Virus record (IMG/VR): IMGVR_UViG_3300027413_000455
Span: 1 to 22,103 of that record
Source: a virus
DNA length: 22,103 bases
Strand: one strand, 5' to 3'
The notes under the pieces were generated by a model that was given only the letters and a program-made list of their open reading frames with translations, ran no database searches and had not been told where the DNA came from. The translations under genes were made by a program, and so were the position numbers. Positions 788 through 22,103 of the stretch are shown here, in pieces (position 1 is the first letter of the stretch; every line of letters begins with the position of its first letter).

Positions 788-1543
788 ATGAGTTTAGATA
801 AAGATATTGATAAGATGGCAGAAAAGTTGAAAGGTACAAAAAGGCGTTTCAGAATTGAAGCAGGATACCGAGGTGGCGAAGTAGCAATTGGCACAGTTAA
901 GGCAGACTTTGTGGACCATTTCATAAAACCAGAAGATGGCGATGGCGACTTAATAGATTTCGTTACCAGTTTCGACTGGGATGAAGTGGATGAGACAATA
1001 CCGTTACCATATGAAAACTTTGAATCATGGACAGAAACAACTGACATTGAACACTTAAATGGAGCATACGCTGACGATCAATGGACTTACGAAGAAGTTC
1101 CTGCAGACGGTAGTGATGATTATGCTTATGAAAATGTAATTGATTTTGATCCTTACCATTTGTACGGCAGAGAAGCATACATGGACGATAAGAAGCCAGA
1201 CGATATGACTAATTATAAACCAGTGCTACAATTTCACAGTGGTGAGAAAGGTGGTTTTGGTTCTTGGTTTGTTGAACTAATTGGCGAAGATTTTGACCCT
1301 AAGAAAGTAGCATTCAGTTCTGTTGAATCTCAGGTAGCCGAAATAGTTCAAGACATGTGGTATGATAAAGAATTGATTGACAAAGATTATGATAACTGTG
1401 ATACTACTGGTAAAGGATACTATGCAAGTGTAGGGTACATGAATATGAAATGGCATGACTCAGATGAAACATATACTGATGAGTATCTACTAGAAAACGA
1501 ATATTGGGAATGTTATGATGACGAGCTCGCCGACAGTGAGTAG
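788..1543 (+). CDS. Very acidic hypothetical protein, 251 aa
   Basis: I recognise no family. By my count 65 of 251 residues are Asp or Glu, spread along the whole length after a short basic N-terminal part (KLKGTKRRFRIEAGYRGG). Aromatic residues are frequent, and the C-terminus is strongly acidic (ENEYWECYDDELADSE). A perfect AGGAGG (777-782), which shares bases with the stop of the previous gene, sits five bases before the ATG, so the start is secure and translation should be strong. Its 3' end overlaps the start of apt by 29 bases in another frame. A soluble DNA-mimic or binding partner of a basic protein is one possibility, but only the composition suggests it. Confidence 0.85.
   Translation: MSLDKDIDKMAEKLKGTKRRFRIEAGYRGGEVAIGTVKADFVDHFIKPEDGDGDLIDFVTSFDWDEVDETIPLPYENFESWTETTDIEHLNGAYADDQWTYEEVPADGSDDYAYENVIDFDPYHLYGREAYMDDKKPDDMTNYKPVLQFHSGEKGGFGSWFVELIGEDFDPKKVAFSSVESQVAEIVQDMWYDKELIDKDYDNCDTTGKGYYASVGYMNMKWHDSDETYTDEYLLENEYWECYDDELADSE
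1377..1405 (+). promoter_or_regulatory. Candidate sigma70 promoter inside the acidic-protein gene
   Basis: TTGACA (1377-1382), a 17-base spacer and GATACT (1400-1405) preceded by TGT, which forms an extended -10. It would start near 1412, about 100 bases before apt. The -10 matches consensus at four of six positions, so the call is moderate. Confidence 0.4.
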
Positions 1544-2090
1544 TTATAATATAGATTTAAAAGACCATATTAGAACAGTATCCGGATTTCCAAAAGAAGG
1601 TATTGAATTTAGAGACATAACTAGTCTACTGGAAAATCCAAATGCATTTAACAAGTCGTTGTCAGATTTAACTGGACTTTCAATGAGCTTCGGTGCTACT
1701 AAAATCATTGGTATCGAAAGTAGAGGGTTTGTTTTTGGAGCACCAGTGGCTAGAGATTTAGACTTGCCTTTTATAATGGCTCGTAAGCCTGGCAAGTTAC
1801 CCGGCAACGTATATAGGAAAGAGTACGAATTAGAGTACGGTACTGCATGTTTGAATATACAATGCAATACAGATATTACTCTAGATGATAAAGTTGTAAT
1901 AATGGACGATTTGATTGCTACAGGCGGTACAGCAATAGCCTGTGCAGATATTGTGCATACACATTTTGGAGTACCCAAAGAAAACATTCAAGTATTAGCA
2001 CTAATAGACTTGCCCACACTTAGAGGAAGTGCTATAATAGAAGAACACGGGTACAGAGTAAACACATTAATTGAGTTCGAGGGACATTGA
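1515..2090 (+). CDS. apt: Adenine phosphoribosyltransferase
   Basis: Joins adenine and PRPP to give AMP and pyrophosphate in purine salvage. The 191-residue protein follows the bacterial Apt pattern throughout: GFPKEGIEFRDITSLLENP near the N-terminus, GIESRGFVFGAPVA, ARKPGKLPG, YELEYGT, and the PRPP-binding loop VVIMDDLIATGGTA at residues 127-140. Length is close to E. coli Apt (183). Two adjacent ATGs (1515, 1518) could start it, and the Shine-Dalgarno is weak. It overlaps the 3' end of the acidic-protein gene, and its stop overlaps the ATG of the nucleosidase gene as TGATG. That neighbour would supply adenine, the substrate of Apt. Confidence 0.95.
   Translation: MMTSSPTVSSYNIDLKDHIRTVSGFPKEGIEFRDITSLLENPNAFNKSLSDLTGLSMSFGATKIIGIESRGFVFGAPVARDLDLPFIMARKPGKLPGNVYRKEYELEYGTACLNIQCNTDITLDDKVVIMDDLIATGGTAIACADIVHTHFGVPKENIQVLALIDLPTLRGSAIIEEHGYRVNTLIEFEGH
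2010..2038 (+). promoter_or_regulatory. Candidate sigma70 promoter within apt
   Basis: TTGCCC (2010-2015), 17 bases, then TATAAT (2033-2038) preceded by TGC, an extended -10. The -10 is perfect and the -35 matches four of six. It would start near 2045 and feed the nucleosidase gene. Confidence 0.35.
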
Positions 2091-2677
2091 TGAAAGATTT
2101 AATTTTAATTGCGTTAGAAAGCGAAGCACCAAAAATGAAAGAATGGGAAAATGTATTTTTTACTGGTGTAGGCAAAGTTAATGCCGCCATTAGAGCATCA
2201 GCACTAATACAAGAACATAGACCTAGTAGAGTTTGGAACTTTGGTACAGCAGGTGGTATAAACCCTGACTGTAAACAATTAGTAGAAGTATCGAACTTTG
2301 TACAACGAGATATGCGATGCTGTGAACTAGGATTTGAAATAGGATTAACTCCGTTTGAAGAGGTTAGGACAATCAGTTTTGATGATCCAAACGAAGGATA
2401 CACTTGTAGTACAGGTGACAATTTTGTAGATAATCCAAACTTAGAAATCCCCGCAGACATAGTAGATATGGAGGCTTATGCTATTGCAAAGGCGTGCCAG
2501 TATCACGGTGTCGAGTTTAAGTGTTTTAAATATATAAGTGATAGTGCCGATGAAAATGCAAACAAAGAATGGCATGAGACTGTTGCAAACGGCGAACCTC
2601 ATTATATTAATGTATGGGACACTCATACTAGCAATTTAAATGACTATGACACACAACTACAATTAGACATGGATTAA
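2090..2677 (+). CDS. 5'-methylthioadenosine/S-adenosylhomocysteine nucleosidase-like protein
   Basis: A member of the purine nucleoside phosphorylase/MTA-SAH nucleosidase superfamily (195 aa). The three catalytic positions of E. coli MtnN (Glu12, Glu174, Asp197) have counterparts: Glu12 in LILIALESEAPK, Glu128 in VDMEAYAIAKAC (residues 125-136) and Asp151 in ISDSAD. The protein is shorter than MtnN (232 aa), with the middle reduced. It should release adenine from MTA or SAH, though another nucleoside substrate cannot be excluded. I chose ATG 2090, which overlaps the apt stop as TGATG, over the TTG three bases earlier. Tight coupling with apt suggests a two-step path from MTA/SAH to AMP; removal of SAH could also relieve inhibition of methyltransferases. 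Confidence 0.85.
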   Translation: MKDLILIALESEAPKMKEWENVFFTGVGKVNAAIRASALIQEHRPSRVWNFGTAGGINPDCKQLVEVSNFVQRDMRCCELGFEIGLTPFEEVRTISFDDPNEGYTCSTGDNFVDNPNLEIPADIVDMEAYAIAKACQYHGVEFKCFKYISDSADENANKEWHETVANGEPHYINVWDTHTSNLNDYDTQLQLDMD

Positions 2678-6040: not shown

Positions 6041-6871
6041 ATGACAAGCGGAACCGCACATACATTATATAACTTAGGATATCAGACCGTAGATTTAGTT
6101 CTTAGTGCGGATGGTATATATGTGGATAATAGACCTATGAATCAGACAAAATTAGTAGTACATAAAGGGTTAAACAATCAATTAAACTTTCATGTAAGAA
6201 ACAGAGACAGAGTTAAGCAAAATCTTAGCACTAAAACGTTGTATGCTACAGTTATTAATCCTAACACTAGTAAACGTGTTTTATTTAAACCGTTGACGCT
6301 GGTTAGTGGTGGAACAACAGGTGAAGCAAGACTAGATTTAGTTACAGGCGATATACAAGATTTATCACCCGGGCTATATCAAATAGCAATAAGTGAAAGT
6401 GCAGATTCAGGTGCAACACAGTCTCCGTTATACGCAAATCAAAACGACAGAATTGTAACTGATTTAGAAATCAAAAGTAGTTTAGAGTATGAACCAAGTC
6501 CAACTCAAACAGCATCTGTGTTCACACAGACAGCAAGTGTTGGTGTAGATGGTATAGATTCCTTTGCAACCTCTTCGTTGTACGGTAATCAAGATAAAAA
6601 CTATAGGCATAGCGGACACACAATAGCACTTTATATGACAGACTTTGTAGGCACTGTTAAAATACAAGGTTCAGCACTAGCATCAGCACCAACACAAGAT
6701 ACAGATTGGTATGATATTAATGCACAAGGTGACATTGGTAATCCAGCAATTCCTTATACTACAGCAACAAGTGGCGTTGATCCTTTTAATTTTACAATAA
6801 ACACTAATTGGATTAGAGTTATTTTTGACCAAACTTCAGGAACTTTAGATAAAGTTTTACTCAGAAACTAG
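6041..6871 (+). CDS. Probable virion structural protein, 276 aa
   Basis: The composition is typical of a beta-rich virion protein: few Cys or Trp, many Thr, Ser, Asn, Gly and Val. The N-terminal part (VDLVLSADGIYVDNRPMNQTKLVVHKG in pieces) resembles the beta-sandwich modules of phage baseplate or fibre-attachment proteins, and the C-terminal part (GHTIALYMTDFVGTVKIQGS ... DWYDI) resembles a jelly-roll binding module. I cannot assign it to a T4 gene. A late promoter box about 24 bases upstream supports late expression. It sits between early modules, so it is a late island with the minus-strand gene. It could be a neck, fibre or head-associated protein. Confidence 0.6.
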   Translation: MTSGTAHTLYNLGYQTVDLVLSADGIYVDNRPMNQTKLVVHKGLNNQLNFHVRNRDRVKQNLSTKTLYATVINPNTSKRVLFKPLTLVSGGTTGEARLDLVTGDIQDLSPGLYQIAISESADSGATQSPLYANQNDRIVTDLEIKSSLEYEPSPTQTASVFTQTASVGVDGIDSFATSSLYGNQDKNYRHSGHTIALYMTDFVGTVKIQGSALASAPTQDTDWYDINAQGDIGNPAIPYTTATSGVDPFNFTINTNWIRVIFDQTSGTLDKVLLRN

Positions 6872-12765: not shown

Positions 12766-14076
12766 ATGAAATTTATTGAAATATCAAAACCATTAGTCAC
12801 ATCTATTCTTAGTGAAAGCATATTGCTGGAGGGTAAGGATGGTAAAAATACCCATTTGGAACATTTAGAAGATAACATCTTAAACAAAGGGTATGCAGGT
12901 GCCAAAGAAGCAGTAGACTACTTATACAGTTTACATTCTATGCTTGACGGCAATGCAAAGTCGCCTATCAGTATGACCACAAAGTGGGACGGAGCACCGG
13001 CTATTGTTGCTGGTAAGGATCCTGCAACAGGCAAATTCTTTGTAGGCACTAAAGGTGTATTTGCACAAAAGGCAAAACTAAACTTCACAGAAAAAGATAT
13101 TGATACCAATCACCAAGATAAAACAGTAAAAGGTGAACTTAAAAGTGGTGAAGGTTTAAGAAAGAAACTTAAATTAGCACTTAAATATCTTAGTGGTTTA
13201 AATTGGGACACTGTAGCACAAGGCGACATGTTGTTTGCTACTACAGAAGACATTAAGACAGTTACTCTTGATAACGAAGAGCATATAATTTTTAAACCTA
13301 ATACAATAACTTATGCTGTTCCTAAGAACAGTGACATGGCAAAACAAATATTAAGTGCAGGGTTCGGTATTGTATGGCACACAGAATACGTTGGCGGCCC
13401 TACACTAGCAGACACAAATGCAAGTTTTGGATTTGACAGCAGTGTGTTAGGACAAGCAAATGGTGTTTGGCACAGAGATGCACTTATCAAAGACCTTAGC
13501 GGCACAGTTACAATGACTGCTGAACAGAGCGATGACATACTGAATGCTATAACTGTGGCAAATGAATATCTTAAGTCTATTGATGCAGACACATTTAAGT
13601 GGTTGCAACAAGGCACAGATTTAATAGGCGACAAGGTATTTTTACCTCAGCTCAAAGCACATGCTAATAATCAAGTACGTCAAGGACACTTTGATGAACC
13701 TACTAAATTTGCACAAGGCTTTGTTACAAAATATATTAATTATATGGAAAAAGAAATTGCTAAAGTCAGTACACAAAAAAGCATAGATGCTAAAACAGAT
13801 AAGATGGTACAAGGCGTTAAGTTTATTAAAGAGCATGTTCCAAGCATTGTAGCAGTATATGACTTGTACTTAAAACTCATTGAAGCAAAACTTAAGATTG
13901 TTAAGAAACTAGAACAAATTAAACAAATCGGAACGTTTGTACAGACAGACTCAGGTTTCGACGTTACGGCAGAAGAAGGATTTGTTGCTGTAGACAGAAT
14001 TGGTAACGCTCTTAAACTAATAGATAGACTAGAGTTTAGCAGAATAAACTTTGGTTCAGGCAAGCCGAGCTCATAA
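12766..14076 (+). CDS. KxDG-motif nucleotidyltransferase/ligase-like protein with capsid-targeting-like N-terminus, 436 aa
   Basis: The segment TTKWDGAPAIVAGKD has K73-W-D-G76, the KxDG core of covalent nucleotidyltransferases (ATP-dependent DNA and RNA ligases, capping enzymes), where the Lys carries AMP or GMP. Later segments could be motif III (VAQGDMLFA, G153-D154) and a Lys-containing strand HIIFKPNTITY (K177). A clear motif V (KxK) and motif IV (DGVV) are missing, so activity is uncertain. Residues 1-22, MKFIEISKPLV ... SILSESILLE, resemble a T4 capsid-targeting sequence with two possible cut sites (LSE17, LLE22). The C-terminal 150 residues are helical (KLIEAKLKIVKKLEQIKQ). I recall relatives in marine T4-like phages of unknown function. 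Confidence 0.6.
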   Translation: MKFIEISKPLVTSILSESILLEGKDGKNTHLEHLEDNILNKGYAGAKEAVDYLYSLHSMLDGNAKSPISMTTKWDGAPAIVAGKDPATGKFFVGTKGVFAQKAKLNFTEKDIDTNHQDKTVKGELKSGEGLRKKLKLALKYLSGLNWDTVAQGDMLFATTEDIKTVTLDNEEHIIFKPNTITYAVPKNSDMAKQILSAGFGIVWHTEYVGGPTLADTNASFGFDSSVLGQANGVWHRDALIKDLSGTVTMTAEQSDDILNAITVANEYLKSIDADTFKWLQQGTDLIGDKVFLPQLKAHANNQVRQGHFDEPTKFAQGFVTKYINYMEKEIAKVSTQKSIDAKTDKMVQGVKFIKEHVPSIVAVYDLYLKLIEAKLKIVKKLEQIKQIGTFVQTDSGFDVTAEEGFVAVDRIGNALKLIDRLEFSRINFGSGKPSS

Positions 14077-14829: not shown

Positions 14830-15342
14830 ATGAGAATTTACGAAATTATACAAAACATAGCAGAAACCCAAACAACGGCTGAAATGATTGACAGTGAGAT
14901 TGATGATGAGATAGGTCCTCCAGGAAACAGACGTCCTGGCTATGAAGGTGTAGACAAAGCGGCTGTAAAGTCTATAGCAATCGGCAAATTTACCACAGGT
15001 GGTCCAAGTATTACTCCGGGTATAGCAGTTAAAATGGCAATGATACAAGTACATCCGGAAATAGAAGATAAAATAATGAGACGTAATTCTAAGGCAAAAA
15101 CTAGTAGCCCAGATAAACAGCAAAGAAAAGGATTAGACATTGGTCCCAGTAAAAGTGTAAGTAAAGGCTGGACTGATAGGACTCACGGTCATTTAAGAAA
15201 GGATAGAAAGGCTATCGAACCAGGCGGCAGTAGCTCTTACAGTCGTGCCAAAACAGGTAATCAGAATTACAAATCCGGACAGGAAAAGGCTAGAAAATCT
15301 GCAGAATTTGTTAAGAATATTATCGGCTCTAACCCTAAATAA
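14830..15342 (+). CDS. Basic late protein with capsid-targeting-like N-terminus, 170 aa
   Basis: The N-terminus MRIYEIIQNIAET has the same pattern as other proteins in this block, with an IAE site (residues 10-12) that fits the T4 prohead protease consensus. Next is an acidic segment (EMIDSEIDDEIGP), then a middle domain (VDKAAVKSIAIGKFTTGG ... IAVKMAMIQVHPEI), and a disordered basic C-terminal half rich in Lys, Arg, Ser and Gly. No enzyme motif is seen. A packaged internal head protein is a reasonable inference. It is preceded by an exact late promoter and no Shine-Dalgarno. No terminator follows. Confidence 0.7.
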   Translation: MRIYEIIQNIAETQTTAEMIDSEIDDEIGPPGNRRPGYEGVDKAAVKSIAIGKFTTGGPSITPGIAVKMAMIQVHPEIEDKIMRRNSKAKTSSPDKQQRKGLDIGPSKSVSKGWTDRTHGHLRKDRKAIEPGGSSSYSRAKTGNQNYKSGQEKARKSAEFVKNIIGSNPK

Positions 15343-15904: not shown

Positions 15905-16234
15905 ATGGCACAAACAAGAGTAAACGGTGGAGTAGTAGAAGGACAACTATTAGTAGGTTCTTTAAGCCACTTTATCATCGACGAAGTAGATACAGTAGAT
16001 GACATTAGTTCATTTGGTTTCACAGCAGGTGCGGCAAACAAAGGTGAAGCAGTAGTTTCATCTTTAGCAACAATCTGTACACCAGTAATTATTACTTCTG
16101 TATCAGCAACAGTAATGCACGTTGCAGTAGAAGGTCAACCTTCAGCGGCAAACGTATTAGCGGCAATCCAACCAGCATTAACTGGTAACGGTGCAAACGC
16201 TACTGTTACAGCAGGCGAATACAGAGTAGCATAA
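15905..16234 (+). CDS. Small probable virion protein, 109 aa
   Basis: Starts MAQTRVNGGVVEGQLLVG and is rich in Ala, Val, Thr and Gly with beta-like alternation (TPVIITSVSATVMHVAVEG) and no Lys-rich segments. No domain is recognised. Late promoter, leader hairpin, AGGAGAT ribosome site and a following strong terminator mark it as a monocistronic, highly expressed gene. A decoration or other abundant virion protein is the best guess. Confidence 0.7.
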   Translation: MAQTRVNGGVVEGQLLVGSLSHFIIDEVDTVDDISSFGFTAGAANKGEAVVSSLATICTPVIITSVSATVMHVAVEGQPSAANVLAAIQPALTGNGANATVTAGEYRVA

Positions 16235-16257: not shown

Positions 16258-16286
16258 AAAAAGCACACTACGGTGTGCTTTTTTTT
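16258..16286 (+). terminator. Rho-independent terminator
   Basis: AAAAAGCACAC (16258-16268) pairs with GTGTGCTTTTT (from 16273) around a TACG loop, with T through 16286. Like the first terminator, it is followed by GGCT. A smaller TGGCT/AGCCA stem (16286-16290 and 16301-16305) comes next. Confidence 0.9.
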
Positions 16287-16321
16287 GGCTTTCGTTCCGG
16301 AGCCATATTTTTGTGTATAAT

Positions 16322-16330
16322 GATAAATAC
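16322..16330 (+). promoter_or_regulatory. T4-type late promoter of the 134-aa gene
   Basis: GATAAATAC directly after TATAAT (16316-16321). Predicted +1 near 16335, and GGAG (16343-16346) lies six bases before the ATG at 16353. Confidence 0.65.
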
Positions 16331-16352
16331 TACAAATAACACGGAGACACAC

Positions 16353-16757
16353 ATGAGTATGACAAGAACAGGAGCAATGGGATCAGTTGAAGTACTAACT
16401 GGTAACATAGAATTTTTTACATTGTTTACATCTTTGGATATATCCGTAACTGGTGATTTTGCAGATGCTACACAAAAAGATTTTGAGAGTGTTGTTCAGG
16501 TAATTGGTTTGAGAGCTATGCCAACAGTGATGAATAATCCTGTATTTTTAAATGGTATAGGGCAGAACTTACTAGAGAATTACGGAGCACCAAGTTTAAC
16601 AGGTGCAGGTTATATCTTTAAGTTCGCTACAGAACAGCCCGGAGCACATACGGTACAGACATTAATAGACGAGTTAGACCTTGTCGTTTTAAACGATGGG
16701 ACAATTAATACTAAAACAAGTGTTAATATGGAATTTACTAAACAGGATTTATTGTAA
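16353..16757 (+). CDS. Small probable virion protein, 134 aa
   Basis: Starts MSMTRTGAMGSVEVLTGNIE; the rest mixes beta-like and helical segments (IEFFTLFTSLDISVTGDF; DFESVVQVIGLRAMPTV). No domain recognised. I chose ATG 16353, which has a GGAG ribosome site and sits 18 bases from the predicted mRNA start; an in-frame reading from 16275 would run through the terminator and promoter. There is no terminator after it, so it shares a transcript with the membrane protein, basic protein and giant amidoligase-like genes that follow. Confidence 0.7.
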   Translation: MSMTRTGAMGSVEVLTGNIEFFTLFTSLDISVTGDFADATQKDFESVVQVIGLRAMPTVMNNPVFLNGIGQNLLENYGAPSLTGAGYIFKFATEQPGAHTVQTLIDELDLVVLNDGTINTKTSVNMEFTKQDLL

Positions 16758-16758
16758 A

Positions 16759-17007
16759 ATGGAAGAACGTAATCAACCGAAGCCAGTCGAACAACAAGTG
16801 TATGCACAAAAGGATAACCTAGAAGCACACATTATTGCAGATATGCTAAGAATAGAAAGTATCACTACTGAACTGAGAGAGTTCAAAGAAGATACAAAAC
16901 AAAGACTGAATAAATTAGAGAACTGGCTAGTAGCAATTGTTGGAACAAGTTTCACAACACTTATTGCTGTGGTAATCGGTTTGATGGTTAATGTGTTTGG
17001 AAAATAA
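16759..17007 (+). CDS. Small membrane protein with coiled coil (holin-like or structural), 82 aa
   Basis: The N-terminal part is hydrophilic and helical (DNLEAHIIADMLRIESITTEL, then REFKEDTKQRLNKLENW) and fits a coiled coil. The C-terminus has one membrane span from about residue 57 to 80 (LVAIVGTSFTTLIAVVIGLMV) and ends in GK. This layout, soluble coiled coil then one membrane helix, occurs in XhlA-type phage holin-associated proteins and other small phage membrane proteins. I start it at ATG 16759, one base after the upstream stop. TAATG overlaps the next gene. No lysis enzyme lies nearby, so a lysis role is only one option. Confidence 0.7.
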   Translation: MEERNQPKPVEQQVYAQKDNLEAHIIADMLRIESITTELREFKEDTKQRLNKLENWLVAIVGTSFTTLIAVVIGLMVNVFGK

Positions 17008-17288
17008 TGAGACTAGAAGATATAACAGAAGATACAATTACTGAAGCCAGAATGGTTTGGCGTAGAAGCGGCAAGAAGATCAAACGTGCTGTTAGATGTA
17101 CTAGCGGTAGGCGTAAAGGCAGAGTGGTTAGTAGCCCAGCACAATGTTCTGCACCTGTCAATATGAAAAAACGTATGACGTTGAAAAAGACAAAAGCAAG
17201 AATGGGTGCAAGAATGTCGAGAAAATCACAAAGAACAAAAAGACTTAATCCTACAAGTAGAAGATTAAGATCATTAAACAGGCGATAA
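17007..17288 (+). CDS. Very basic small protein with capsid-targeting-like N-terminus, 93 aa
   Basis: About one third of the residues are Lys or Arg. Residues 1-13, MRLEDITEDTITE, are acidic and end in an I-T-E site before Ala14; cleavage there by a T4-type prohead protease would release a purely basic protein (MVWRRSGKKIKRAVRC onward). Two Cys (in RCTSGRR and AQCSAP) flank a GRRKGRVV segment. Similar small basic proteins in marine T4-like phages have, as I recall, been called prohead core proteins. DNA binding inside the head is the likely role. Translation is coupled to the membrane protein (TAATG). Confidence 0.75.
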   Translation: MRLEDITEDTITEARMVWRRSGKKIKRAVRCTSGRRKGRVVSSPAQCSAPVNMKKRMTLKKTKARMGARMSRKSQRTKRLNPTSRRLRSLNRR

Positions 17289-17291
17289 TAC

Positions 17292-20200
17292 ATGAAATTT
17301 ACTGATGTGAGAACTTTAGAAAGTGTACTAGCAGAATATGGTATGAATTCCGGAGCAAGTACACCCACTAGTCAACAAAAGACTGGGGCAACAGCAAAAG
17401 CAAATGCTAAACCTACAACTACTAAAGCACCTGCTAAAGTAGATAAAGGTAGCCCAACAGTAACACCCGGATTGGATGTTAAAGATGCAGAGCCTGAAAA
17501 AGTAGAACCAACTTATACAAAGTCTAAAGCAAAAGATATAGAAGTTGATGCAGAATATCACAACGACAAAGGCGAAGTAGCAGGTAAAGTAGTTAGTAAG
17601 GTAGGGAACAAACCAAATCCAGATAAAGTTGTAATACAAGATCCTAAAGGTGAGTATCAACTAGTCGACCCAGATGAAGAAGTACAAGTTTTAAATGCTA
17701 GTAAACTTTCCAAGTTGAGTAAGTCCACAGCATCTTCCTTCAATATTAAAAATCACAGCAAAAAAAGACTTGCTAAATTAAAGACCAACATGAAAAAACT
17801 TGTGCGTAAGTTTAAATTGCGTGAACAAGGACCTGAACCAATATTTGAAATAAACTTTAATAGAAAAAATGTTGCACAGCAGGCACTTAACAGTCCTATT
17901 AAATGTGGATTTGAAGCAGAGACTGTATTTACAGAAGTAGCAGACAGAGGAAGTGATGACGGAGACTGGTTATACGAATACAATTGGTACGACATCGAAG
18001 ACTTTATTAGAGATCAAGAAGGCAGTGGGTCTGTTGATACAATAGTTGAAGCATACAAAGAATGGATTTATGAAAAGGCATATGATTTAGAAGGCGACAT
18101 CATGCATGACCTAGTCGTTGAAAGAAAAGAAGATGAAGATGAGTTAAATGATTTCGTTGAATCAATGCTAGATGAAGATGATATAGAAGCGTACAAAGAA
18201 GAAGAATTAGAAGGTATGGACGATGAGCAAAAAGAAGAGTTCGAAGATTGGGACTTTATTGCATGGGGCAGACAGTATACCGAAGAACAACGAGAAGATG
18301 AATACATTGAGTGGCTCGAAGAGAAAATCAGAGACAATGGTGAAGCATTAGAGTTAGCAGTTGAGTCAGCCGAAGAAGACAACGATATGGATCAATGGGC
18401 GGCTAACGAATATGGTAGTTGGAGTAGTTGTTTAGGCGAACATGGTATCTACTTATACGATGAAGGCGGTTCAGGCGAAGGAGTTAGCGAAGTAGGCGAT
18501 ATGTTAAGAATTTGGGCCAGAGATAACAGTAAAGTTAGTGATGATGTGGAATCAGGTGAGTACCACTCGAGTTATGGTACTAACAATGACTTTTGGCGTG
18601 TAGAGACTGACAGCAGTATTGACGCAGATAGCGGCACAGGCGCAGAAGTTATTTCTCCTGTTTACGATACACCTAAACAAATGATGGAAGAAATGAAAAG
18701 CCTGTTCGATTGGTTTGCAAAGGAAAATGTAGAAACAAACAGCAGTTGCGGATTACATATTACAATGAGTTTAGACAGTGAAAATAAAGAAGAAGTTAAT
18801 CCAGTTAAACTTGCTGTCCTGTTAGGCGACAAATATTTATTAAGTACATTTGGCAGAGCAAACAACAGTTATGCAAAGTCACAGGTTGCTAGTTTGAAGA
18901 AGTCCGCACAAGAGTTAAAATCAAGTCCAGAAAACACTAAGACTATAAAAAACATAGAAAATATTCTTAAGAAAGGTATTAATCCAGGCAAGTTTAGTTC
19001 TATAAACTTTAAAGACCAAACTGATAGCCAGACTGGTAATCAACTTATAGAATTTAGAATTGGCGGTGGCGATGACTATCACTTAAACTTTGATACAGCC
19101 GCAAAAGCAGTTATACGTTATGCTGAAACATTAAGTGCGGCATATAGTGATAAACTGTACAGTAAAGATTATGCAAAAGCATTATTCAAATTAATAAACA
19201 GTTTAGATGAAATTGATGCAAAAGATATAGAACGTGTTAAAGGTAGATTCGAAATAGAACTACCTATTGTAGATGTTATTAAAGACTACTTCGATAAAGC
19301 CATTTATATTGATTCAATGGATTCGGTTGCTGTAGCAGTAAACAGTCTAACGAAATATAGAGAATTATCTCAGCCAAATGCAGATGAGCAGTGGAAACAA
19401 GCACTTGTAGATTATGAAGAGCGAACTGGTAAGAAAGTAGAAGTAGAAGAAGTAGAAGAAATGGAACCTTTGCAGGCACAGGAACCTATTACAAGGCCTT
19501 ACAAACAAGCACCAAGTAAACAAGCACCATTGTATTTGAAAAAAGCACAGGAAAACTTTGCACTAGCAATTGGACAGGCAGGATTTGACCTTAGTTCAAA
19601 TAAAAGTAGAACAAAACCTAATGCGAAATCTATTGGTGAATTTAGAAAATCTTTAGCAGACTTTGAACTTACATATGATAAGTTGGGTCAGCTGATACTA
19701 AAACTACAAGATAGAATTCAAGTTGCCCAAGCGGCGAATGATACACCACAGAAAAAATTAACTACAATACAAAACGGTGTCGACAAATTATTTAAGAAAT
19801 CTATTATTACACTTCCTGCGTTTTTAAGTGGACCAGACAGTGACAAAATTGTTAAAGGAATGTGGTCAGCATCACAAAGTGGTGAATTACAAGATGGCGA
19901 GAAAAATAAACAATTCTTTAACGCAATAGCAAGTGCTACTAATGTTGATGTAGACACAATTGTTAGTGCATGGGATTCTGTTAATAAAAACGAGTTCAAA
20001 CGATTTAATCAGGACTTGGTAAAAGGTTCGTATAACAGTCCTGGCATTAATGCCAGCACTTCCTGGTTTCCAGTAGGCGGCCCAGTTAACAAAGCAGGAC
20101 TAAAGAAATTACTTGCTCACTTGGCAGATTATGAAGAGTGGAATCACCCTGTTAAGAAAGGTCATAACCCAACTACAAGTGGAGATGATTCATACACAGA

Positions 20201-22103
20201 TAATGCAATAAGTAAAATGCAAATTAAATTGAGAAAAAGATTTCTAGAAATACAACGTGTAAAAGATACACAGCCAGCACAACATTACGATATGCTAAAA
20301 GTAATAAGTAAATCTTTAACAGAATTAGTACCGGCAGTAAAAGCCACAGAGAAAATGATGGCAGAAATAGATCCTTCATTGAGAGGTGTTGAACCGCACG
20401 GTACGTCACAGGACGGATTGGATTACTTTGGTATGAGATCGTCCCAAGCAGAAACAATGACAACAATTGCTAGACAATTATCAAACCCAGATGCCTCAGA
20501 TCCTTTTTCTGAAACTCCTGTAATTCAATTACAGCAACATCTACAAGCCTATTTAAACGATGTGTTTGAGAGAAATCATCTTGCTAAAGCAAAGTACGGT
20601 GCTGATGTATTTACTAAAGGTAAAATACCTGAACTAATTAAGACCAGAACAGATGCTATATCTAAATTTATAAACACAATAGACAAGCTCGGACAAGAGC
20701 TAGGATTTGATAGTACTGGTATCGATGTTGACCAAAAGAAACAACTTCCTAAAAAGCAAAAACAGTTTATGAAAAAACACGGTGACCCGTCGATTGCTAA
20801 AATAAACGCATTTAGTTTTGGTGGCGATGTAATGGTCAAAAAAGAATTTGCTAAAGAAATAAAAACAATAGGCGATAATGAACTAAAGTCTAGAGTACAG
20901 CAACCTAGTTCAATACATTCAACTAGTTACAAAGATATATTAATTATTCCATGGGCACACAGTAGTGCAATAAGAAATTCTATTGAAATATTAAATAACC
21001 CAGAAAAATATAAAGACAACTGGAGATGGCGAGTTGCTGAAGAAATGAAACGTAGATGGGAAAGCAAGTACGGAATTACTTATGACGAAATGTTTGATCA
21101 ATATGTATCTTATAACGACTCTGGTATTAAACGAATGCTTCAACAAAGAGGCATAGAGTTTACTGATGAATTAGGTGACGGTAGAGAACCTAACTTTGCT
21201 CCACTAGTTACACAAGAAGTAACAAAAGGGCCAGACGGTGAACCGTTTGATCCAAGATCAGCACAGGTTTGGAAAATGAATAATGAAAGTGTATTTAAGA
21301 AATTTGATAATTTGCCATTAGAAGAGCAAATTAATATTATTAATAAAGTTAGTAAAGACAAAATTGATAAGATTTACGAAGCATCAAAGGATATTCCTAG
21401 TGGACAACACATATGGAACGTGGCATATAAAGATGGTAGTAATAAAGAAGTAATGGCGTCAAGTCCATATGGTGTTTATCTACAATTAGCACCTGGAGTG
21501 CGTTATCCAGAGAAGCAAAAGAAAGCATTGGGAATCAAAAGTATAAAAAAAGTGAGACAGCCTAATCGAAAGCCTAAAGGCTCGTTTGGATTTAACAATA
21601 AAGGTTTCACTAAAGATCAAAGAGATCTTAAAAAAGCTAAAGATATAGAGTTTAACAAAGACCCTGATTCATATGTACATGATCGAAATAGAGTTGGCGT
21701 TGAAGAAAGTGTTCCAGACTTTAAACAAGTAGATACTATTAATAGATTAATGGCAGATCATTTTCCAGTAGGAGACCTTAAAAAACAAATGTTAGCCTAC
21801 CAAGCGATTCCTGTACCTGCAATGTTAGATCATTTTAGACAACTAAGAGCAGAAGCAGGCGATGATGCATGTGCTAGGAACATATTGCAAATGTTTGTAG
21901 GTGTATTACCTGATGAAACAAAAGCAAAAATTAAAATGACAGAATGGAGCAAACAGCACGTTACTAAACTAATTAACGAGTATACTGACTTAGGTGTTGA
22001 AAAAGATGCTATTATTAAAACTATTAGCGGACTAGATGCCAGCAATGAGCAACATGCTAATATACTAGATAGAATTTACAAATTACTTAACAGTGACCAT
22101 ATT
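17292..22103 (+). CDS. Giant protein with amidoligase-like domain and capsid-targeting-like N-terminus (3' end outside window)
   Basis: An open frame of 1,604 codons runs off the window without a stop. Residues 1-15, MKFTDVRTLESVLAE, match the late-protein N-terminal pattern and end in an L-A-E site. A Lys/Thr/Pro/Ala-rich linker follows. Residues about 200-620 carry the motif order of the amidoligase-2 group of COOH-NH2 ligases: CGFEAETVF (205-213), WRVETDSS with GAEVISP (435-456), CGLHITMS (486-493) and IEFRIGGGDD (586-595). Such enzymes use ATP to form amide or peptide bonds. A very acidic insert lies between the first and second motifs (around residues 280-370). The remaining 980 residues are helical, Lys-rich and unrecognised. 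ATG 17292 lies three bases after the upstream stop. Confidence 0.7.
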   Translation, partial: MKFTDVRTLESVLAEYGMNSGASTPTSQQKTGATAKANAKPTTTKAPAKVDKGSPTVTPGLDVKDAEPEKVEPTYTKSKAKDIEVDAEYHNDKGEVAGKVVSKVGNKPNPDKVVIQDPKGEYQLVDPDEEVQVLNASKLSKLSKSTASSFNIKNHSKKRLAKLKTNMKKLVRKFKLREQGPEPIFEINFNRKNVAQQALNSPIKCGFEAETVFTEVADRGSDDGDWLYEYNWYDIEDFIRDQEGSGSVDTIVEAYKEWIYEKAYDLEGDIMHDLVVERKEDEDELNDFVESMLDEDDIEAYKEEELEGMDDEQKEEFEDWDFIAWGRQYTEEQREDEYIEWLEEKIRDNGEALELAVESAEEDNDMDQWAANEYGSWSSCLGEHGIYLYDEGGSGEGVSEVGDMLRIWARDNSKVSDDVESGEYHSSYGTNNDFWRVETDSSIDADSGTGAEVISPVYDTPKQMMEEMKSLFDWFAKENVETNSSCGLHITMSLDSENKEEVNPVKLAVLLGDKYLLSTFGRANNSYAKSQVASLKKSAQELKSSPENTKTIKNIENILKKGINPGKFSSINFKDQTDSQTGNQLIEFRIGGGDDYHLNFDTAAKAVIRYAETLSAAYSDKLYSKDYAKALFKLINSLDEIDAKDIERVKGRFEIELPIVDVIKDYFDKAIYIDSMDSVAVAVNSLTKYRELSQPNADEQWKQALVDYEERTGKKVEVEEVEEMEPLQAQEPITRPYKQAPSKQAPLYLKKAQENFALAIGQAGFDLSSNKSRTKPNAKSIGEFRKSLADFELTYDKLGQLILKLQDRIQVAQAANDTPQKKLTTIQNGVDKLFKKSIITLPAFLSGPDSDKIVKGMWSASQSGELQDGEKNKQFFNAIASATNVDVDTIVSAWDSVNKNEFKRFNQDLVKGSYNSPGINASTSWFPVGGPVNKAGLKKLLAHLADYEEWNHPVKKGHNPTTSGDDSYTDNAISKMQIKLRKRFLEIQRVKDTQPAQHYDMLKVISKSLTELVPAVKATEKMMAEIDPSLRGVEPHGTSQDGLDYFGMRSSQAETMTTIARQLSNPDASDPFSETPVIQLQQHLQAYLNDVFERNHLAKAKYGADVFTKGKIPELIKTRTDAISKFINTIDKLGQELGFDSTGIDVDQKKQLPKKQKQFMKKHGDPSIAKINAFSFGGDVMVKKEFAKEIKTIGDNELKSRVQQPSSIHSTSYKDILIIPWAHSSAIRNSIEILNNPEKYKDNWRWRVAEEMKRRWESKYGITYDEMFDQYVSYNDSGIKRMLQQRGIEFTDELGDGREPNFAPLVTQEVTKGPDGEPFDPRSAQVWKMNNESVFKKFDNLPLEEQINIINKVSKDKIDKIYEASKDIPSGQHIWNVAYKDGSNKEVMASSPYGVYLQLAPGVRYPEKQKKALGIKSIKKVRQPNRKPKGSFGFNNKGFTKDQRDLKKAKDIEFNKDPDSYVHDRNRVGVEESVPDFKQVDTINRLMADHFPVGDLKKQMLAYQAIPVPAMLDHFRQLRAEAGDDACARNILQMFVGVLPDETKAKIKMTEWSKQHVTKLINEYTDLGVEKDAIIKTISGLDASNEQHANILDRIYKLLNSDHI

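Follow-up and report, generated by a model that had tools for sequence, protein, structure and literature searches.

A giant modular phage protein with an amidoligase domain, a capsid-targeting-like leader and an exchangeable C-terminal cassette

At the 3' end of the window (the whole 22,103-bp stretch of viral DNA analysed here), an open reading frame at 17,292-22,103 on the plus strand runs from an ATG to the end of the contig, 1,604 codons without a stop. An earlier, sequence-only reading took it for a giant amidoligase-like enzyme, possibly packaged in the phage head, which raises the question of whether this protein is one enzyme at all, and how and where it would act. Drawing on sequence, structure models and analogy with known phages, we consider it probable, if only by a little, that the protein is a head-targeted polyprotein from which the prohead protease releases a ligase and a PD-(D/E)XK-like nuclease for delivery. 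The gene and its parts are listed here, with a slash marking each candidate cut.

17292 to 22103, plus strand: giant amidoligase open reading frame, residues 1-1604, open at the contig end
17292 to 17336, plus strand: capsid-targeting-like leader MKFTDVRTLESVLAE/YG, residues 1-15
17337 to 17825, plus strand: basic linker ending in conserved LRE/QG, residues 16-178 (alignment A1)
17853 to 19205, plus strand: amidoligase domain of predicted glutamine-synthetase fold with a helical insertion of ~190 residues, residues 188-638 (AF2, Foldseek, VIA, PF12224)
17904 to 17921, plus strand: motif 1, CGFEAE (E208, E210), residues 205-210
18597 to 18659, plus strand: motif 2, RVETDSSID...GAEVISP (E438, D440, E452)
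18750 to 18770, plus strand: motif 3, GLHITMS (H489, T491)
19047 to 19058, plus strand: motif 4, IEFR (E587, R589), residues 586-589
21705 to 21710, plus strand: candidate internal cleavage motif VEE/S (E1472), starting a recurrent SVPDF or AVPDN module
21978 to 21983, plus strand: candidate cleavage motif INE/Y (E1563), where the C-terminal cassette is joined
21981 to 22103, plus strand: first 41 residues of the nuclease-like cassette (YTDLGVEKDAIIK...), the same module as residues 1564-1912 of the relative L001

Searches of IMG/VR recovered 16 relatives with the giant protein and 161 with an alignment of its domain; 80 loci were kept from the latter, and counts out of 80 refer to these. One relative, L001, shares 8.5 kb of DNA with the window at 99.1% identity, as far as the window's last base; its homologue stops at 1,912 aa, so the full length and the 3' end were read from there. 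Because of this continuation, and because the window keeps the first 41 cassette residues, its missing end is known in type. A chain of more than 1,600 residues, as first described, is thus borne out in both, and other full-length members span 1,546 to 2,472 aa. Identical fusions in independent contigs of several lineages rule out an assembly artefact. The lineage appears to be marine and related to the PA5oct-like jumbo phages (Arenbergviridae); these are also the nearest sequenced phages for its replicative helicase, at 53.7% identity. No relatives were found in bacterial and archaeal genomes, which therefore gave no clue to the host. Scans of the giant proteins and their C-termini with NCBIfam and PADLOC returned no useful name, and PDB sequence profiles gave nothing meaningful for the amidoligase or the C-terminal domain. 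Elsewhere in the window (1515-2677), an adenine-phosphoribosyltransferase-like gene and a nucleosidase-like gene lie side by side, overlap by a few bases and suggest a purine salvage pair.

The identification as an amidoligase had rested on four ordered amidoligase-2 motifs, with residues 190-630 proposed as the domain. The motifs are present in order in the window (VETDSSID...GAEVISP at residues 437-456, CGLHITMS at 486-493), and the amidoligase does lie where proposed, though its extent is closer to ~188-640. Pfam Amidoligase_2 (PF12224) matches residues 425-557 (E 1.7e-5, 25.2 bits against a cut-off of 22) and the domains of 24 of 42 relatives (E<=0.01), and PHROG 7469, 'amidoligase enzyme', matches weakly (E 0.0015). 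Across 42 sequences, 39-91% identical to the window, CGFEAE, E-x-D-x-S, G..E.ISP, GLH.TMS and EFR are conserved, and E208, E210, E438, D440, E452, H489, T491, E587 and R589 are invariant; the helical insertion varies among these sequences and the motif positions do not. No loss of ATP-site or metal-site residues was seen across these homologues. Among the fetched relatives, CGFEAE and GLH[VI]TMS occur in all 80 and [IV]EFR in 78.

The AlphaFold2 model of residues 172-700 (mean pLDDT 82.8) places the long helical insertion after the first strand, at model residues ~55-241. Glutamine synthetases head its Foldseek matches (best E 4.3e-3, probability ~0.9), and YbdK and PafA appear lower in that list; VIA-align reached Z 11.4 over 206 residues, with 190 chains at Z>=8; the 50 matches listed are glutamine synthetases or close homologues. 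A viral structure library gave phage 'amidoligase enzyme' proteins as its best matches (to E 2e-19, up to 1,071 aa). The comparison with glutamine-synthetase folds proposed at the outset thus gave a match, and an unrelated fold was not seen. Chance motif matching is ruled out by the family matches, the fold and the 80 loci. Residues ~188-640 are, by sequence and model, a genuine Amidoligase_2 domain, and ATP-dependent ligation is predicted for it.

One departure from the family pattern, already noticed from the letters, is real: the second histidine of motif 3 is replaced (CGLHITMS), and HxH gives way to GLH[IV]T in 80/80 loci. HxH is usual in other amidoligases, and glutamine synthetases carry GMHxHxS, in which the first histidine binds metal; that first histidine is kept in the giant family. 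Homologues in two jumbo phages also lack the second histidine, with asparagine at this position in Atu_ph07 and serine in SCTP-2, and we therefore do not take HxH as family-defining. Because the threonine is invariant in the family, its presence looks like a lineage trait and not decay, and the domain that carries it may be active.

The C-terminal cassette has a different character. Its GP..E140, D158 and E168-x-K170 are invariant in 37 sequences, and in its model (pLDDT 88, pTM 0.82), which runs from a helix (140-145) through strands at 150-152, 159-161 and 165-172, the E, D and E-x-K fall in a helix-strand-strand-strand core, as in PD-(D/E)XK nucleases. Foldseek found no match with this model. 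VIA gave weak matches, with MspI in the first row (Z 4.2, 147 residues) and HinP1I in the third (Z 3.9, 160 residues), both restriction enzymes that align over most of the cassette's catalytic half. No relatives of the cassette were found among 50,697 sequenced phages. On sequence and model, the cassette is likely a PD-(D/E)XK nuclease. Two more cassette types resemble other restriction-enzyme-type cores, one in L036, L056, L060 and L090 (HFDMSVKVGS.KQ.GQVGGG, PHROG 3560) and one in L040, L049 and L054 (VGISSKGGKGAK). A short module, INCSNPKGFSQKAHCAGKKK, recurs in giants (L010 residues 1538-1608; L060; L109) and in cyanophage genes; in P-TIM68 it lies near the major capsid gene, and it has a weak, below-cut-off ArfA match.

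Is this nevertheless one giant enzyme, as first supposed? The C-terminus argues otherwise, being exchanged among relatives and found also in separate, leader-bearing genes. Between L002 and L003, identity is 97.3% across 6.1 kb upstream and 99.3% across 3.0 kb downstream, and the same superoxide dismutase (SOD) gene follows in both, but the 3' ends of their giant genes (1.28 and 1.06 kb) are unrelated; conversely, the giants of L007 and L061 are only ~54% identical N-terminally and have C-termini that are 91% identical. The cassette of the window's type is a gene of ~360 aa with its own leader (MRLRNLFE/YDDL, MRYKDLVE/YEDL) in over 40 other contigs, and its fused copies are joined at KLINE/YTDL, ITVNE/YDDL or ESVINE/YDDL. 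Leader, linker and cassette also occur together, with no amidoligase, in proteins of 720-941 aa; the amidoligase is likewise absent from records of 200 kb or more with a stand-alone cassette, so that the ligase is an accessory module. Most full-length relatives combine the amidoligase with a nuclease-like module, and two (L069, L078) carry a fused Cu/Zn SOD, with NVSE/A (or NVQE/G) and [IL]TE/AEE kept; several others have a Cu/Zn SOD gene with a leader ending LSE/AEK or ISE/AEE downstream of the giant. By sequence, the Cu/Zn SOD module thus appears to behave like the nuclease-like one, stand-alone or fused, with the motif kept. Since the C-terminal alignment (A3) lacked conserved stretches, these searches were done by single module. 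The exchange between close relatives leads us to reject the one-enzyme reading; the giant is a chain of modules with an interchangeable C-terminal cassette.

Unrelated cassettes between near-identical phages might also suggest a weapon like the polymorphic toxins, with the N-terminal part as delivery device and the exchanged nuclease as effector against the host or competing phages, and the nuclease-like E...D...ExK patterns of several cassettes, with restriction enzymes among the best structural matches, fit this. Yet no immunity gene is evident with the cassette, the same SOD gene following the giant in both swapped phages; some cassettes are not nucleases but SODs; and the amidoligase is the most conserved part, beyond what a carrier would need. 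We regard such a weapon as unlikely, though it is the alternative that fares best.

For the head-targeted polyprotein, the N-terminus is the first piece of evidence. A targeting-like start had been claimed for the window's giant, and a leader of 8-18 aa, variable in length and constant in its end motif, is present in every complete member, ending in hydrophobic-x-Glu with tyrosine next nearly always ([LI]xE/Y in 12/12 aligned relatives). Of the apparent exceptions, that of L029 and L030 is explained by initiation at GTG (seen by eye in L029); the others are one truncated contig start and one leader ending VIE/G. This short leader resembles the capsid-targeting sequences of T4 (PMC10052503). 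Leader-like starts are found in 121 of 537 distinct forward open reading frames of at least 100 aa in the fetched loci; shuffling leaves 35+/-5, and the 128 antisense frames yield none. Many of the forward frames are homologous to each other, so 121/537 overstates the independent cases. The LRE/QG at the end of the linker is kept in 11 of 12 aligned relatives, and leader and linker recur without the amidoligase in L109, L113 and L120. The leader pattern, which is common in the lineage, would let candidate injected proteins be listed from sequence.

The neighbourhood offers a second line of evidence.

14830 to 15342, plus strand: protein with a capsid-targeting-like leader, MRIYEIIQNIAE/TQ (sequence, leader survey)
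15905 to 16234, plus strand: homologue of the PA5oct structural protein EST35_0233 (ESI-MS/MS), E 5e-7
16275 to 16757, plus strand: homologue of the PA5oct structural protein EST35_0234 (ESI-MS/MS), 34.6% over 159 aa, E 4e-25
17007 to 17288, plus strand: small protein, highly basic, leader MRLEDITEDTITE/AR; immediately precedes the giant and is a conserved neighbour in relatives

The gene order of the window matches a block of PA5oct, and the PA5oct homologues of 6041-6871, 15905-16234 and 16275-16757 are annotated as structural (ESI-MS/MS), as is that of the gene downstream of the giant in relatives; the mass-spectrometric support is that of these PA5oct homologues of syntenic neighbours. Because such proteins lie on both sides, the giant sits among virion genes. 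PA5oct-like jumbo phages share the surrounding virion gene order with the window, whereas PA5oct has small structural genes at the giant's place, and protein searches found no amidoligase homologue in it. The major capsid family PF07068 had no match anywhere, a result uninformative on absence. The window also encodes, at 12766-14076, a DUF6267 protein (PHROG 455) that is conserved in cyanophages and pelagiphages and shows a leader-like start; its KWDG motif is reminiscent of nucleotidyltransferase ligases, and no solved relative was found. Leader, leader-rich gene block and PA5oct synteny together support head packaging indirectly.

A position among virion genes would also suit an amidoligase acting late in the producing cell, around head assembly, where it would modify or cross-link virion proteins and be packaged as a by-product. 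The Atu_ph07 homologue adjoins portal and prohead core genes, and ATP is present in the cell and not in the mature head. However, the domain is accessory, missing from same-leader proteins and from the cassette-bearing records of at least 200 kb, which argues against a general assembly step, and the leader and exchangeable partners fit cargo better; we think late action in the producing cell rather improbable.

The joints of the giant look like head-protease sites. At VEE/S, kept in 7 of 9 aligned relatives, fall the recombination joints of other relatives, and xE/Y is kept at the start of every listed copy of the cassette, stand-alone or fused; of the joints, YxDL and SOD show the cleavage-like motif clearly and others show it loosely. 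LYE/Y at E229 was rejected as a cleavage site, lying inside the conserved domain. Where T4 gp23 is cut, the major capsid proteins of the related contig G016 and of PA5oct read, by eye, YLSE/SANSG and FLVE/NASAG, and a prohead protease is present in both. In T4, the residue after the cut is Ala, Ser or Gly, whereas tyrosine stands at P1' in the giant's motifs. Such proteases process many head proteins of giant phages, cutting after Glu (PMC9026906). Neither PF03420 nor the PA5oct protease was found in the giant-gene contigs, including one of 217 kb, though these contigs may be incomplete. Both the tyrosine and this result count against the polyprotein, and the latter favours a coincidental leader, or some other N-terminal signal, on an unpackaged cytosolic late enzyme; the leader statistics and the syntenic virion genes speak against this, and we give it a small chance.

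The head-targeted polyprotein would work as follows. The leader would bring the chain into the prohead, as with T4 capsid-targeting sequences; the prohead protease would cut after Glu at [LIVMF]xE/, removing the leader at LAE/YG and separating modules at INE/Y and possibly at LRE/QG and VEE/S. The predicted mature N-termini are YGMNSGAS or YGMSSGAS, QGPEPIFEINFN, SVPDFKQ and YTDLGVEK. Ligase and nuclease would then stay in the head alongside the DNA until both are ejected; in the host, with ATP and Mg now available, the amidoligase would form an amide bond on a protein of the host or of the incoming phage, and the nuclease would attack DNA. More tentatively, and as a possibility we would not yet bet on, several host-takeover enzymes (amide ligase, restriction-like nucleases and, in some phages, SOD) may be carried in one prohead-protease-cut chain under a single leader, with the last position serving as a slot for exchanged, motif-bearing cassettes. 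A head-packaged structural or scaffold-like ejection protein whose ligase fold is no longer catalytic seems quite improbable: the replaced second histidine, the very long helical chain and a neighbourhood in which no partner from known amide metabolism was found would fit it, but all eight of the key acidic, His and Arg residues stay unchanged in 42 divergent sequences, in contrast to the helical insertion around them, and other phage homologues have Asn or Ser in place of that histidine.

How far do known systems anticipate the head-targeted polyprotein? Phage amidoligases of PF12224 and PHROG 7469 are common and share its motif series and predicted fold, but the giant is much longer, has the helical insertion after the first strand and the invariant threonine, and adds a capsid-type leader and exchangeable C-terminal modules. 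Its closest homologues in sequenced phages are those of Agrobacterium phage Atu_ph07 (AUZ94978, 500 aa; hhalign probability 99.3%) and Salicola phage SCTP-2 (gp124, 647 aa; 95.8%), which are short and, unlike the giant, have no modular C-terminus; the former lies in a portal and prohead region and starts MRWQDISSKKLTE/L. In T4, as in the giant's lineage, a short leader ending in xE stands on many unrelated proteins of one phage, among them IPI-III and Alt, and such leaders suffice for the packaging and delivery of foreign enzymes (PMC9026906). T4 enzymes are delivered with the DNA (PMC9026906), as we propose for the giant; T4 cargo, however, consists of single small proteins with one main cut, whereas the giant has fused modules, internal motifs and tyrosine after the main one. 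Polyvalent proteins (DarB and DdrB of P1, the N4 virion RNA polymerase) are likewise very long and multidomain, with mixed domains, and are transferred with DNA, as the giant would be (PMC5512222), but the giant's joints carry protease-like motifs. In the passages on polyvalent proteins considered here, 'ligase' denotes RNA ligases and amidoligase is absent (PMC5512222). Pfam scans of the N- and C-terminal parts found no polyvalent domain (ArdC-N, DarA, LPDs, MPTase and others) above cut-off, with one weak LPD3 match. A literature search for a phage head polyprotein with a prohead protease found no clear precedent. Phage amidoligases as a family are thus already known, and so are packaged effectors with several domains, such as polyvalent proteins (PMC5512222) and T4 Alt; what appears new is an amidoligase under a capsid-type leader, joined to swappable modules that derive from leader-bearing genes and keep their cleavage motifs. 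If the reading is right, phages deliver ATP-dependent amide-bond-forming enzymes at infection, a host-modifying amide chemistry that we did not find reported as packaged, and they do so by means of a polyprotein in which one effector position is replaceable. With the cassette and its near-identical flanks, peptide mass spectrometry would be enough to test the idea.

The SOD genes near the giant vary in their own right. Directly downstream of it in relatives, a Cu/Zn SOD with a capsid-targeting-like leader is fused to a ParB-like part (L023:15445-16938, with Sod_Cu E 7e-45; L022:15223-16716; L028:16063-17751; L072:16480-18510; L088:16246-18066). An Fe/Mn SOD stands in place of the Cu/Zn enzyme in L029:17460-17999, L032:7286-7819 and L054:14754-15293, with leaders such as MKVNDFLTE/A and Pfam matches of E 1.8e-22 (L029) and 8.4e-25 (L032), so that two unrelated SODs are found near the same place. 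An alternative oxidase adjoins the SOD in L029:18010-18597 and L054:15306-15893 (PF01786, E 3e-69 in L029).
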